NCBI GenBank assembly: GCA_016350165.1
Contig: CP066225.1
Location: forward strand, 2,356,001 to 2,420,000
From: Planctomycetota bacterium
GTDB taxonomy: Bacteria > Planctomycetota > Phycisphaerae > Phycisphaerales > Phycisphaeraceae
Reading direction: 5' to 3'
Length of the DNA stretch: 64,000 bases
Shown: positions 3,219 to 41,923 of the stretch, piece by piece
Layout of the letters: every line of letters starts with the position of its first letter
Numbering within the stretch: the first letter of the stretch is position 1
Notes under the pieces: model-generated
Told to the model about the DNA's origin: nothing
The model's database searches: none
Seen by the model: only the letters and a program-made list of their open reading frames with translations
Made by a program: the position numbers and the translations under genes

Positions 3219-4433
3219 ATGCCCGACCAGACCCCGCAATTCAAAACCATCACCACGCCTCTCAACCCCACCTCCACCTTCACCTACAAAATGCTTTGGC
3301 AGACCCGCCTCAAACGTCTCCGCAAAATCCTCAAATACACCTTCATTTTCTTTCTCACCATCACCCTCCTCATCACAGCCTTTTGGCTCACCAACTACAT
3401 CCGCGCAAGACACGCCTTCAACAACATCGCCCACTACCGCACCGGCGATCAAATCAACCAACACTACGACCAACTCGCCAACACCGAACGCGCCGCCTCC
3501 TACACCCAAGCTCTCCTCGAACTCGACACAGCCTACGAACTCACCGACAACATCAGTCTTTTTGACCGCCTCGCCACACATCAATTCAGCCTCATCACAC
3601 CCACACCCCCCGAAATTCGCGCTCGCATCGATACACTTCTCGATCGCAACCAAGAAGCCATCAAATCTCTCATCACCCACAACAACCTCGGCCCAATCCG
3701 TTTCCAACACGATTACAACGCGCCAACCGCCAAAATCCCCTACCTCGACCACGTCCATGAAATCGCTTCCCTTCTCACCCTCAAAATCCTCATCCATTTC
3801 AAAGACAATCATCCCGAACCAGCACTCGACACCACTCTCGCACTCATCCAATACGCCAAATCCCTCCAGCACGATCCCCACGGCTTCAGCCAAACAATGG
3901 TCAAATACCTCCACAACTATTACATCCCCACAATCATCGACGCCATCTCTCAAACCCACCCCTTTACATCCGATCAAATCAAACAAATCCAAGATGCATA
4001 CGCCGCGCACCCATACGACCCCCGCGCCGCAGCCTACGACATGGTCCTCGCCCAACAATTCATTTCCCTTCAACACTTCGAAAACGAGCCCCGCTTTCAA
4101 CTCCCCCTCTCTCATCTCCCCTTAACCCGTGACCTTGACCACATCGAAACCATCCGCTTCTTCGACACCATCTTCACCCAATTGCAAAACCAAAGCGACG
4201 ACTTCAGCTGGATCTACGATTACTCAGAAACCATCCGACCATACCACCACATCGCTCGTGAAGCTTCATGGCTAGTCAACATCGACTTCAATCAAAAATT
4301 CTACAAATCTCACAACCACATCCTCTTCTCCCTCGCCGCCGAGCGTTACTACCTCGACCACAACAACACCCCCCACGAAACCGACGCCGACCTCGTCCCC
4401 ACCTACCTCAAAGAACTCCCAACCGAAAACTAA
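3219..4433 (+). CDS. membrane-anchored protein of unknown function
   Basis: 404-residue protein. A basic stretch (about residues 28-38) precedes one transmembrane helix at about 40-59, so the remaining ~340 residues should lie outside the cytoplasm. The large domain is helical in look, with many Tyr, His and Leu, resembling hypothetical planctomycete proteins with no assigned function. AAGGA six bases before the ATG supports the start. Its last four bases overlap the 3' end of the convergent transposase gene. Strongly C-rich codon third positions follow the local + strand bias. Confidence 0.7.
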   Translation: MPDQTPQFKTITTPLNPTSTFTYKMLWQTRLKRLRKILKYTFIFFLTITLLITAFWLTNYIRARHAFNNIAHYRTGDQINQHYDQLANTERAASYTQALLELDTAYELTDNISLFDRLATHQFSLITPTPPEIRARIDTLLDRNQEAIKSLITHNNLGPIRFQHDYNAPTAKIPYLDHVHEIASLLTLKILIHFKDNHPEPALDTTLALIQYAKSLQHDPHGFSQTMVKYLHNYYIPTIIDAISQTHPFTSDQIKQIQDAYAAHPYDPRAAAYDMVLAQQFISLQHFENEPRFQLPLSHLPLTRDLDHIETIRFFDTIFTQLQNQSDDFSWIYDYSETIRPYHHIAREASWLVNIDFNQKFYKSHNHILFSLAAERYYLDHNNTPHETDADLVPTYLKELPTEN

Positions 4434-4909
4434 TCACAATGAAACCTCCCCCACCTCGCGCCCTTATGCTTAGGCAAATATACAGTTATTAGATGCTCAA
4501 AATGCTCACGATCTTTTACCTGTTTACGACCCCCGCCCTTACTAAACCATTCACGCTTCCAATACGCATCATTCAACGCTTTCGTCATCGCCGTCTTCAT
4601 TGATTTTCGCATCTTCAACCAATCTTTCTTCTCATCACGCCAACCAATAACCACATGGACATGCGTTTCATCACAGCTAAACCCATAAAATTCAGCCTCT
4701 AACCTCTCACATGCAACAGCACAAATATCCAACAACAACCATTGCTTATCACCATCAAATCTCACCACTTCCATCCTCGCCTGCGAGCGATAACTCTCCC
4801 CCATCCACTCATCTTTCGACAACACACCCTTTCCTCTGCGCACATACCCCGCTTCTCGATCAGGCATCCAACTCCCATACGCATGAAACGTAAACAAGTA
4901 TACCGCCAC
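4430..4909 (-). CDS. Y1/HUH transposase, REP-associated (RAYT-like)
   Basis: 159-residue protein of the IS200/RAYT-like Y1 transposase superfamily, single-strand DNA nucleases that use a HUH motif and a tyrosine. The opening VAVYLFTFHAYGSWMPD is typical of a planctomycete branch of this family. THVHVVIG (about residues 83-90) is the HUH pair, and a tyrosine in LITVYLPKHKG near the C-terminus is a candidate nucleophile. I chose the GTG at 4909, preceded by GGAGG, over a TTG at 4927. A REP-type hairpin lies about 95 bases upstream and five more are scattered in the window, the classic RAYT/REP arrangement. It is a lone gene without IS ends that I can define, so probably domesticated or REP-mobilising rather than a complete IS. 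Confidence 0.75.
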   Translation of the reverse strand: MAVYLFTFHAYGSWMPDREAGYVRRGKGVLSKDEWMGESYRSQARMEVVRFDGDKQWLLLDICAVACERLEAEFYGFSCDETHVHVVIGWRDEKKDWLKMRKSMKTAMTKALNDAYWKREWFSKGGGRKQVKDREHFEHLITVYLPKHKGARWGRFHCD

Positions 4910-5001
4910 GCTACCTCCAGAATCCAAATCTCAAACTCGCAACATTAATCAATGAGCTACAACAAAATAACTGCTAAAACCACACGATCTCTACAAACTC
5001 A

Positions 5002-5037
5002 AATAGCCGCGGACCTACGGGCCGCGGAAGCCTCATC
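5002..5037 (-). repeat. REP-like hairpin 1
   Basis: Read on the minus strand this is GATGAGG, a 9-pair stem with one mismatch around the loop GTA, then GCGGCTATT. It shares flank, three-base loop and CTATT tail with the other REP-like elements of the window. It sits just upstream of the HUH transposase gene. Confidence 0.7.
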
Positions 5038-5086
5038 CCCCCCCACCTCCCTCACCCCGCACGACCACACCATATTCCCTTTACCT

Positions 5087-6893: not shown

Positions 6894-6953
6894 ATTTTTA
6901 AAAGTGACAAACCACACACTCAAACCTCAAATCACTCAATTCCTACAACTGAC

Positions 6954-6993
6954 AATAGCCGCAGAACCGCGTTTGGCGGAAACCTCACCTCTC
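6954..6993 (-). repeat. REP-like hairpin 2
   Basis: On the minus strand GGTGAGGTTTCCGC leads into an imperfect stem with loop GCG and ends GCGGCTATT. It matches REP 1 in its GATGAGG/GGTGAGG lead, three-base loop and CTATT tail, with two stem mismatches. Confidence 0.6.
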
Positions 6994-7151
6994 ACACACA
7001 AATCATCAACCCAACAAAACCCACCAAAAACAAAAACCCCAAACCTGTAAAATCCCAACAGAGCAGGGCAACTCAATTCCTCAAAACCCAAATCCCAAAA
7101 ACTAAAACTCACCCAATTACACGAAATCTCGCGCACCGCACCACCACAAAA

Positions 7152-13359: not shown

Positions 13360-13385
13360 ATTTTGCGATGAGGTGGAATGAGGGG

Positions 13386-13417
13386 GTGGGCACGGCGAGC
13401 GTGGCTCGCCGGCTGTT
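13386..13417 (+). repeat. REP-like hairpin 3
   Basis: A perfect 8 bp stem CGGCGAGC/GCTCGCCG with loop GTG, preceded by GTGGGCA and followed by GCTGTT. It is nearly identical to the element at 39383. Confidence 0.75.
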
Positions 13418-13483
13418 GTTATAACTGCATGTTGATGACGTACTGCTTTTAAGGGCTTGAGTGTTTGCGAGGTTGATTTACGT

Positions 13484-39284: not shown

Positions 39285-39382
39285 AGGGTGTTGATGGGTC
39301 GTTTGCCCTAGGTGATGCAAGCAAGGCGAGGGATGGTAATTGTTACAGACAATGTCATTATGAGGCGTGAGTGGTTGTGCGG

Positions 39383-39415
39383 GGTGAGCACGGCGAGCGT
39401 GGCTCGCCGGCTATT
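39383..39415 (+). repeat. REP-like hairpin 4
   Basis: GGTGAGCA, then the perfect 8 bp stem CGGCGAGC/GCTCGCCG with loop GTG, then GCTATT. Stem, loop and lead are identical to those at 13386. It lies between the ParB-fold gene and the small-terminase-like gene. Confidence 0.75.
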
Positions 39416-39439
39416 TAAAATTAGCTGGAGGTTTCGTTG

Positions 39440-39907: not shown

Positions 39908-39923
39908 GGTGAGGCGTGGGGGA

Positions 39924-40042
39924 GATGTTTCACTAAAACGTATCGTTTATCTTTTATATGTGAGTTTGGCGAGGTTGTTTCACTTTAGCGTATCGTCTGA
40001 AGAAAGCTGTACGTTAGTGGGTTGTTTTCACTATATCGTATC
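39924..40042 (+). repeat. array of three ~50 bp repeats (right)
   Basis: Three copies of TGTTTCACTNNANCGTATC at 39924, 39974 and 40021 (the last has one extra T), spaced 50 and 47 bases. They are in the opposite orientation to the array at 35331-35453, so the two arrays form inverted repeats around a 4.5 kb segment. The array occupies nearly the whole gap between the small terminase-like gene and the terminase gene. TGTTTCAC equals one half of a canonical parS. Confidence 0.85.
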
Positions 40043-40117
40043 GTTGATTTTAATTATTACGTTTGGGTTTAATTAGTTTTTGATTGTGCTGATTAAGTTG
40101 TCTTAGAGAGGGTGTCT

Positions 40118-41923
40118 ATGCGCGGGTTAGAGATGAGTGTGGTAAAGAGTTGGGGGCGGTTAGGGCAGTTGTGGGCGGTGCGGCCGATGGATGAGGAAGA
40201 GTTGCATCTATTTATTAAGGTGGTTTTGGGGTTGGATGTGCCTCGGGAGGTAAGAAGTGATGGAAATGATGCTTGTTTTGAGTATGTGAAGTGGGCATAT
40301 TTTGAGGGATCGACGGCTTGTTTTGATGATGGAAATAGAAAATGTAAGGTGGGGGAGGTTTGTGGGGTGAGAGATTCCGGCGATCACGGATCGCCGACTA
40401 TTGGAGTTGCAGGAGATGCGTTTAATGGTTGGTTAGATGATACGAAAAACAATGCGTTGCAAGTCAATGGGGGGATTGGAAGTGATGATGTGACGCAACA
40501 GGGGGGAGACTGTGTTGTTTGGGCGAATCGTGGTGGGGGGAAGACGATGTTGGGAGCGGTGGTGACGCTTTTAGATCTAATGTTTAAGCCGGGGATACAG
40601 GTGCGGATCTTGGGTGGGTCGTTGGAACAGTCGGGGAGGATGTATGAGCATTTGTTGGCGTTATTAGAGAGACCGATGCTGAAGGGGATTGTGAAGGGGG
40701 AGCCAACGCAACGAAAGATTGAACTTGTGAATGGGAGTCGGGTTGAGATTTTGGCGCAGAGCCAACGGTCGGTGCGCGGGGTGAGGGTGCATAAATTACG
40801 GTGTGATGAGGTTGAAGAATTTGATAAGGATGTTTGGGAAGCAGCGCAGTTGGTTACACGTAGTGGGTGGTGCGGTGATGTTTGGGTTAAGGGGAGAGTG
40901 GAAGCGCTTTCGACGATGCACCGGCCGGGCGGGTTGATGGGGAAACTGGTGAGTCAGGGGTGGAAGGTTTTTCGGTGGAACGCGATTGATGTGATGCAGC
41001 TGTGTGATAGACGGTGTCATAAAGGTTGTTCTTTGTGGGAGGATTGCAAAGGTAAAGGGCAAACGGGGCATGGTTTTATTGGTGTGGATGATTTGATGGA
41101 TCAGTGGCGACGAACGAGTAGCGGGACGTGGGATAGTGAGATGATGTGCAAGAAGCCTCGGATGGATGAGATGGTTTATTCGATGTTTGAGCGGGAAAAG
41201 CATGTAAAGAAAGTGCTGGGGACTCGTGCGAGTGCTGTGGAAAACGCAAGCGAAGTCCTTGAAAGATGGGAAGATGGTTATCGCCAAGGTGGGGTGGGGG
41301 AGGTTGTGAGGGATGAGCGCGCCGATCGTAGATCGGCGGCCACTGGCGTTGCAGAAGATTTGTCTAATGGTGGGTTAGAGATTGCTAAGTATGTTATTGG
41401 AGGAATGGATTTTGGGATTCGGAGTTTGGCGGTTGTGTTAACCGGGGTGGTGCATGAAGTGGGTGATGGGAAGCGTATTGTGCATGTTGTGGATGAATTG
41501 ATGATGGGTGGGGTGCGATTGGATGGTGTGATCGATAAATGGGAAGTTGAGATGTCTAAGCGTGAGATAGAATGGCCTCGCTGGATGGGTGTTGATCCTG
41601 CTGGGATGGCGCGGAATATGCAGACAGGTGTGAGTGATGTGACGGTGCTTAAGGGAAGAGGATATGAGGTGAGGGCGCAGCGAGTGAGGATAAAGGAAGG
41701 GATTGAGTTGGTCAGGCGGATGCTTGATCGTGGTGAGCTATTTGTACATCCGAGGTGCGTGGGATTGATTGAGGCGATGGAGGGATATCATTTTGATGGG
41801 AAGCATGGGGGTTGTGATGAACCGGTGAAGGATGGGCCTGACCATGCGTGTGATGCATTGAGGTATATGCTGCAGAATTTGTTGGCGGGGTATGGGAAGA
41901 AGATTGAGGCGCGGATATATTGA
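40118..41923 (+). CDS. terminase large subunit-like protein (TerL)
   Basis: 601-residue protein with both terminase domains intact. The ATPase has Walker A ANRGGGKT (136-143) and Walker B KLRCDEVEEFD (about 228). The RNase H-fold nuclease has acidic residues in GGMDFG (about 430), MGVDPAG (about 493) and DGPDHACDALRY (about 570-580). Between them is a four-cysteine cluster, C-x3-C-x3-C-x5-C (about 296-310), that could hold zinc or an Fe-S cluster, unusual for a terminase. Two ~30-residue stretches (76-108 and 394-424) are translated REP-like elements. GTG 40112 is possible; ATG 40118 has AGAGGG upstream. No capsid, portal or protease gene follows, so it is not part of an intact prophage here. 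Confidence 0.9.
   Translation: MRGLEMSVVKSWGRLGQLWAVRPMDEEELHLFIKVVLGLDVPREVRSDGNDACFEYVKWAYFEGSTACFDDGNRKCKVGEVCGVRDSGDHGSPTIGVAGDAFNGWLDDTKNNALQVNGGIGSDDVTQQGGDCVVWANRGGGKTMLGAVVTLLDLMFKPGIQVRILGGSLEQSGRMYEHLLALLERPMLKGIVKGEPTQRKIELVNGSRVEILAQSQRSVRGVRVHKLRCDEVEEFDKDVWEAAQLVTRSGWCGDVWVKGRVEALSTMHRPGGLMGKLVSQGWKVFRWNAIDVMQLCDRRCHKGCSLWEDCKGKGQTGHGFIGVDDLMDQWRRTSSGTWDSEMMCKKPRMDEMVYSMFEREKHVKKVLGTRASAVENASEVLERWEDGYRQGGVGEVVRDERADRRSAATGVAEDLSNGGLEIAKYVIGGMDFGIRSLAVVLTGVVHEVGDGKRIVHVVDELMMGGVRLDGVIDKWEVEMSKREIEWPRWMGVDPAGMARNMQTGVSDVTVLKGRGYEVRAQRVRIKEGIELVRRMLDRGELFVHPRCVGLIEAMEGYHFDGKHGGCDEPVKDGPDHACDALRYMLQNLLAGYGKKIEARIY
40346..40437 (+). repeat. REP-like element A inside the terminase gene
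   Basis: A 92-base in-frame segment with an 8 bp stem CGGCGATC/GATCGCCG, loop ACG and tail ACTATT. Downstream GTTGCAGGAGATGCG...TAATGGTTGGTTAGA matches element B at 41286. It encodes VGEVCGVRD...GVAGDAFNGWLD. Confidence 0.75.
41286..41379 (+). repeat. REP-like element B inside the terminase gene
   Basis: A 94-base in-frame relative of element A with stem CGCCGATC/GATCGGCG, loop GTA, then GTTGCAGAAGAT and CTAATGGTGGGTTAG (41364-41378), itself a CTAAY-N5-RTTAG palindrome. It encodes VGEVVRDER...GVAEDLSNGGLE, similar to the peptide from element A. Confidence 0.75.

Follow-up and report, generated by a model that had tools for sequence, protein, structure and literature searches.

In-frame REP-type palindromes and associated repeats in a terminase gene of Poriferisphaera

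The terminase locus

We analysed a window of 64,000 nucleotides from the single-contig genome (5,234,020 bp) of ZRK32, putatively assigned to Poriferisphaera heterotrophicis. The closest genome found, with which it is compared throughout, is that of KS4 (contig of 4,291,168 bp), putatively P. corsica. Coordinates refer to the window unless marked as genome positions. The features within the terminase gene are:

40118..41920, plus strand: TerL, large terminase subunit, 601 aa (PHROGs, Foldseek, KS4 comparison)
40356..40416, plus strand: REP copy 1, GGCGATC stem, in frame, encoding EVCGVRDSGDHGSPTIGVAGD (covariance model 70.9 bits, BLAST, translation)
40378..40396, plus strand: hairpin of REP copy 1, 8-bp stem and 3-base loop
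40421..40437, plus strand: E2-like palindrome after REP copy 1, imperfect, TTTAATGGTTGGTTAGA, not matching the strict E2 pattern
40451..40506, plus strand: in-frame copy of E3, the third repeat of the mosaic at site 1 (HMM of KS4 E3 copies)
41302..41358, plus strand: REP copy 2, GCCGATC stem, in frame, encoding EVVRDERADRRSAATGVAED (covariance model 60.6 bits, translation)
41320..41338, plus strand: hairpin of REP copy 2, 8-bp stem and 3-base loop
41363..41379, plus strand: E2 palindrome after REP copy 2, TCTAATGGTGGGTTAGA, exact pattern match (genome 2397363)

The TerL frame, for which a GTG at 40112 is a possible start, matches terminase families in PHROGs (best 3.2e-14) and has no match in Pfam or NCBIfam. 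Phage TerL structures are the top PDB matches of its model in Foldseek, and RGGGKT, DFG, DPAG, and DH, which we take to be the ATPase and nuclease motifs of TerL, are invariant across an alignment of 66 sequences. Judged from its sequence, the 601-aa ORF is predicted to have the TerL fold, with a Walker A ATPase and an RNase H-like nuclease. It contains no stop codon or frameshift and remains open through both REP copies, in agreement with the original prediction that two inserts leave the frame open and are tolerated by an intact-looking terminase.

Between 35917 and 43059, TerL is accompanied by GNAT-like, sigma-like, ABC-type ATPase, ParB-like, and TerS-like ORFs and is followed by an EamA transporter ORF. 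Three copies of another short repeat, TTTCACTnnAACGTATCGT, lie just 5′ of TerL (39917-40044); this repeat also adjoins many of the REP copies whose surroundings were inspected. TerL homologues are present in 151 of the 298 genomes of the class. Of the TerL loci of 80 relatives (flanks of up to 2500 bases), 61 have the ATPase, 32 a TerS-like, 29 a ParB-like, and 22 a sigma-like gene, and none has an EamA gene; the neighbourhood may be a conserved nonphage terminase locus.

Over 480 codons of the TerL core, ZRK32 and KS4 differ with dN of 0.148 and dS of 1.06 (dN/dS ∼0.14), and the core is under purifying selection. This value bears on the reading that TerL is decaying and, as a gene no longer required, can tolerate inserts. 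Such decay would fit the lack of a portal- or capsid-like gene among the neighbouring ORFs inspected and the EamA-type transporter that follows, but the low core dN/dS, the retained ATPase and nuclease motifs, the uninterrupted frame, and the retention of the neighbouring genes in KS4 leave it very improbable.

The REP family and its gene-borne copies

The two units within the TerL frame (40348-40437 and 41293-41379) are 76% identical. Both are in frame, and both hairpins have stems of 8 bp, which are perfect, with a 3-base loop; the frame and the hairpin dimensions are as originally described. The further claim that these are the same hairpins as those of the extragenic REPs in the window holds as to kinship; the stem at 13393 and 39391, however, is a different one, CGGCGAGC. 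The REPs of the window outside TerL are:

4988..5047, minus strand: REP adjoining a RAYT-like gene (covariance model; genome 2360988-2361047)
6939..6999, minus strand: REP outside TerL (covariance model; genome 2362939-2362999)
13375..13431, plus strand: REP outside TerL, GGCGAGC stem (hairpin fold and covariance model)
39373..39429, plus strand: REP between the ParB-like and TerS-like ORFs (hairpin fold and covariance model)

A BLAST search of the source genome with TerL copy 1 gives 42 matches at E ≤ 10, which include copy 2; 26 of these are at E < 0.01, counting the query itself. Another locus matches copy 1 at 89% identity (E 1.9e-18). By using a covariance model built from 27 aligned copies, which match by construction and include both TerL copies, we found at least 149 REPs in the genome (135 at E ≤ 0.01), a floor because 150 candidates were scored. 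The same model gives 28 matches in KS4, 14 of them at E ≤ 0.01. In the 27-copy alignment, which folds into a hairpin with a stem of 8 bp and a loop of three bases, three of the eight stem pairs are changed on both sides. Stem variants of the family include GGCGATC, GCCGATC, GGCGAGC, and GCGGAGC. The TerL units are therefore members of a genome-wide hairpin family, as predicted, and the many relatives outside TerL speak against a simple tandem duplication. Among the 136 best copies, the tag beside the hairpin is ATAG in 54, GTAG in 12, TTAG in 11, and CTAG in two, with none found in 57 by the pattern used. The family is a high-copy short palindrome within the ranges that Table 1 of PMC3733652 gives for the GTAG REP superfamily (stem 5-13 bp, loop 2-20), and it is mostly intergenic by our judgment of gene-borne copies.

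That judgment was made by inspection of stop-free frames and not with a gene caller. A codon-usage score for the REP surroundings was rejected because TerL itself scored low, and the frames were therefore inspected instead. When a combined flank of 150 codons or more is required, 21 stop-free frames span a REP, on 19 of the 149 copies. Four of the 149 were judged to lie inside real genes: two in TerL, one in a gene for a permease-like membrane protein, and one antisense in a 525-codon frame; in the remaining frames one side is short or looks noncoding. The antisense copy (L152, genome 3471386-3471445) is located within a membrane-protein-like ORF, with the cysteine pair CPNC on one side and CPECGH on the other, and both sides of it score as coding by codon usage. 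The view that REPs are normally intergenic is thus borne out, and calling coding copies rare is fair for this genome, although in-frame REPs as a kind have been published, in passages of PMC3733652 on intragenic copies. The frame shared by the three same-strand coding REPs was set aside as weak evidence, 61 of 124 anchored copies being open in that frame; on the strand concerned, neither copy 2 nor the permease-like copy has any other open frame, and copy 1 has one other.

E2 and E3, the further parts of the composite

Each TerL unit had been described as a single element of ∼93 bp with a shared downstream part. The unit is instead a composite: a REP followed by a separate 17-bp palindrome, E2. 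The downstream part does exist, but it is a dispersed palindrome in its own right and is imperfect at site 1, where a third repeat, E3, had been missed. In the window alone the E2 palindrome occurs twice against 0.32 expected, a weak result that is settled by a 446-kb set of ZRK32 sequence. There, the strict pattern TCTAAYN5RTTAGA occurs 25 times, compared with 1, 0, 0, and 0 in four random sets; the 446 kb were chosen largely around REPs, and REP neighbourhoods are favoured by design.

For E3 we used an HMM of 25 KS4 copies judged noncoding, drawn from 30 loci; the gene-borne copies L224, L227, L235, and L239 were omitted, as was L242. Of the 25, nine (L213, L214, L216, L219, L221, L226, L228, L233, and L241) lie in stop-free frames of 143-171 codons that were judged nongenic. 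The best match of this HMM in the 446 kb of ZRK32 is window 40451-40506, with an E-value of 1.3e-7, whereas the best E-value on 10 random sets of local composition is 0.13. KS4 TerL matches with an E-value of 7e-7, and KS4 has 37 matches at E ≤ 1. Three more ZRK32 matches pass the inclusion threshold, one in an AddB-like gene and two directly after REPs. A whole-genome BLAST search with the E3 of ZRK32 TerL gives one other match at E < 0.1 (0.0149 over 21 bases), and by this test E3 is not an amplified family in ZRK32.

Read in the frame of the gene-borne copies, only one of 22 KS4 E3 copies (L229) is open over 18 codons. Three of the 25 first came out open; L231 and L234 (open) and L230 (closed) were excluded since they had been anchored on an early tandem match. 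In 15 of the 21 closed copies a stop codon directly precedes the last three codons. There is a stop in the repeat core in 18 of the 22 and none in the core in four; L219, L221, and L228 are closed only by stops 5′ of the core. We infer that E3 originated as a DNA repeat, of which stop-free forms entered genes, and not as a protein repeat that leaked out.

Comparison with relatives and origin of the inserts

Our first TerL alignment comprised 30 TerLs, of which 14 were inspected as aligned rows and L040 was followed up to its stop, with linker detail at site 1 for all 30 and at site 2 for 18 relatives. A second set of 80 loci had a TerL frame in 74, of which 65 were aligned, the nine others being partial or near-duplicate. 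The original estimate of ∼30 added residues is too low: The site-1 linker is 66 aa in ZRK32 against a median of six and a maximum of 58 in the 65 relatives, and the site-2 linker 64 aa against a median of 14 and a maximum of 48. The latter includes ∼25 extra residues 5′ of REP copy 2 (41213-41286) that are mostly gapped in KS4. The insert residues are not shared as conserved protein by TerL relatives; such sharing would have refuted the original reading. We recognised neither a target site nor a target duplication.

A few TerLs outside the genus also have long linkers, of 58 aa at site 1 and of 48 and 45 aa at site 2. The site-2 expansion in G090 (EAGILPAS, L039) was dropped as a REP, there being no hairpin of ≥8 bp. 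In L042, of another family of the same order, a hairpin with an 8-bp stem and 3-base loop is present in the site-2 linker (TerL residues 322-328) and may be due to chance. Long linkers in other TerLs, together with the G-rich TerL strand, are what one would expect if the linkers had grown by slippage or tandem duplication at the coding level, their likeness to REPs being chance in G-rich coding DNA. This explanation is already strongly disfavoured, and we give it hardly any weight, in view of the 89% match of copy 1 to another locus, the number of covariance-model matches in the genome, and the margin by which the TerL E3 outscores the random sets.

KS4 TerL has no site-2 insert. Its site-1 linker repeats the ZRK32 order of hairpin, E2-like palindrome, and E3, but the hairpin belongs to a different family (stem 9, loop 3). 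This KS4 hairpin type, with paired stem changes, is also found elsewhere in KS4, at least at L101, L355, L358, L361, and L363, partly at L099, and imperfectly at L174 and L176. The start of the E2-like palindrome, AATGCGCCTAA, occurs in KS4 both in the TerS-like gene and in TerL (L171:15790 and L171:16259). An empty site 1 was found only in other genera and never within the genus. Since the site-1 linker is long and contains E2-like and E3 elements in both species while the hairpin families differ, the hairpin was gained or replaced in at least one of the two lineages since they diverged; and since KS4 has a different repeat in the same linker, scattered repeats became (predicted) protein linkers more than once.

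Similar differences are seen in other genes (the labels permease-like, AddA-like, and AddB-like are ours). The ZRK32 permease-like protein (555 aa, no Pfam match) carries a REP-bearing stretch; its KS4 orthologue, one frame of 530 codons, aligns to query residues 1-37 and 81-551, the two parts being separated by 12 bases, and reads LSARQKGGKKIGFVQW in place of that stretch. From such sequence comparisons, absence of the insert from orthologues can be stated against KS4 for TerL site 2 and the permease-like gene, and for TerL site 1 against other genera only. The KS4 AddB-like gene (L337), part of which lacks a Pfam match, has in-frame repeat cassettes, E3 included, at three places, and ZRK32 AddB-like retains E3 relics at two of these, the second of them weak (HMM E 0.21). 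In KS4 AddA-like (L364), E2-like and E3 elements lie in frame before Walker A; ZRK32 AddA-like is without the insert. A KS4 Hsp70-like protein (Pfam HSP70) has an in-frame E3 in a loop of varying length among relatives, and both species have a second Hsp70 copy.

An AlphaFold2 model of TerL on 66 sequences has a mean pLDDT of 83.3 and a pTM of 0.80, with pLDDT ≥90 in 412 of 601 residues. Values below 50 occur at residues 73-126, 371-375, 391-419, and 593-601 and cover most of both inserts. The inserts thus fall in predicted linkers of low pLDDT, which answers the structural question raised with the original prediction, though low pLDDT is partly expected here because almost no aligned relative covers them. 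In the site-1 linker (57 aligned codons, alignment uncertain) dN is 0.59 and dS 1.20.

These values and the choice of genes bear on whether the inserts are functional linkers under selection, with repeats recruited to lengthen or tune the linkers of DNA-end-handling enzymes (TerL and AddA/AddB-like). The targets do recur, TerL and AddB-like being struck in both species and AddA-like in KS4; KS4 AddB-like has its cassettes at three places, and PMC3733652, in its account of intragenic REPs, includes repair genes, recBCD among them. We nevertheless regard selection for function as rather unlikely, since dN in the site-1 linker is about 0.59 against 0.15 in the core, linker sequence and length differ between the sister species, the AddA-like insert of KS4 is absent from ZRK32, and Hsp70-like and permease-like genes are also struck. 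By far the most probable explanation, in our view, is that REP-type palindromes inserted in frame within the TerL gene and were kept because they lie in disordered linkers and left the frame open; the added peptides would then be near-neutral.

In RAYT/REP and REPIN systems, REPs flank a Y1-like transposase gene, and comparable genes in ZRK32 would be candidates for mobilising the REPs:

4430..4927, minus strand: RAYT-like Y1 transposase paralogue, 165 aa, HVH and YLPKH motifs, candidate mobiliser (ORF, motifs)

A second such gene, elsewhere in the genome (L033), encodes a 161-aa Y1-like protein that also has HVH and YLPKH, is 50% identical to the window paralogue, and, like RAYT/REP systems, is flanked by a REP on each side (genome 2273210-2273266 and 2273761-2273817). 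In contrast to those systems, both proteins score below the Pfam cut-off of 23 for Y1_Tnp (17.8 for L033 and 16.7 bits for the window protein), and the hairpin tag is ATAG more often than GTAG. Neither protein has a match in NCBIfam, and PDB searches with them gave no convincing relative. Both are putatively labelled RAYT-like from motifs and from the flanking REPs. The best Y1_Tnp match of the genome (L031/L032) in our reading looks like a remnant of an IS200-type TnpA and not like a RAYT; at L031 (genome 680223-680581) it contains a stop.

Several features of the TerL inserts have counterparts in the sections of PMC3733652 on intragenic GTAG/CGTC REPs. In-frame copies are described there from several species, including two REPs within a single gene, and two Xanthomonas species are reported to differ in the REP present at roughly the same place in recB. 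Flexible linkers are proposed as a reason for tolerance, and Planctomycetes are named among the carriers of these families. As there, the elements here are short hairpin repeats that are mostly intergenic and in some cases in frame within genes; they differ in having a terminase as host, in the joining of a REP to other repeat families in fixed order, and in the different hairpins at one composite site in sister species. The same source mentions Rickettsia palindromic elements, in-frame palindromic repeats in genes likely to encode functional proteins; by that description our elements resemble them in being inserted in frame and differ in phylum. The open-access literature searched yielded no description of a terminase with REPs or of a hairpin-E2-E3 composite. 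In-frame REPs are already known; what is new, within that literature, is the fixed order of the mosaic and the presence of different hairpins at one site in the two sisters.

A bolder and rather doubtful possibility is that the ordered composite of unrelated repeats (hairpin, E2, and E3) is a linker module spreading in Poriferisphaera and entering loops of TerL, AddA-like, AddB-like, and other proteins. Variants compatible with coding would always enter in the same reading frame, with later exchange of the hairpin; if this is true, dispersed repeats would be a continuing source of new disordered protein linkers.

The terminase joins the known hosts of in-frame REPs, and the same protein loops are used by unrelated repeat families. 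Annotators should bear in mind that a long linker predicted with low confidence in these proteomes can be repeat DNA. Each species has empty sites that are filled in the other (KS4 at TerL site 2 and in the permease-like gene, ZRK32 in the AddA-like gene), and in this pair of sister species, both cultured if the putative names hold, one can trace at orthologous sites how mobile repeats turn into protein sequence.
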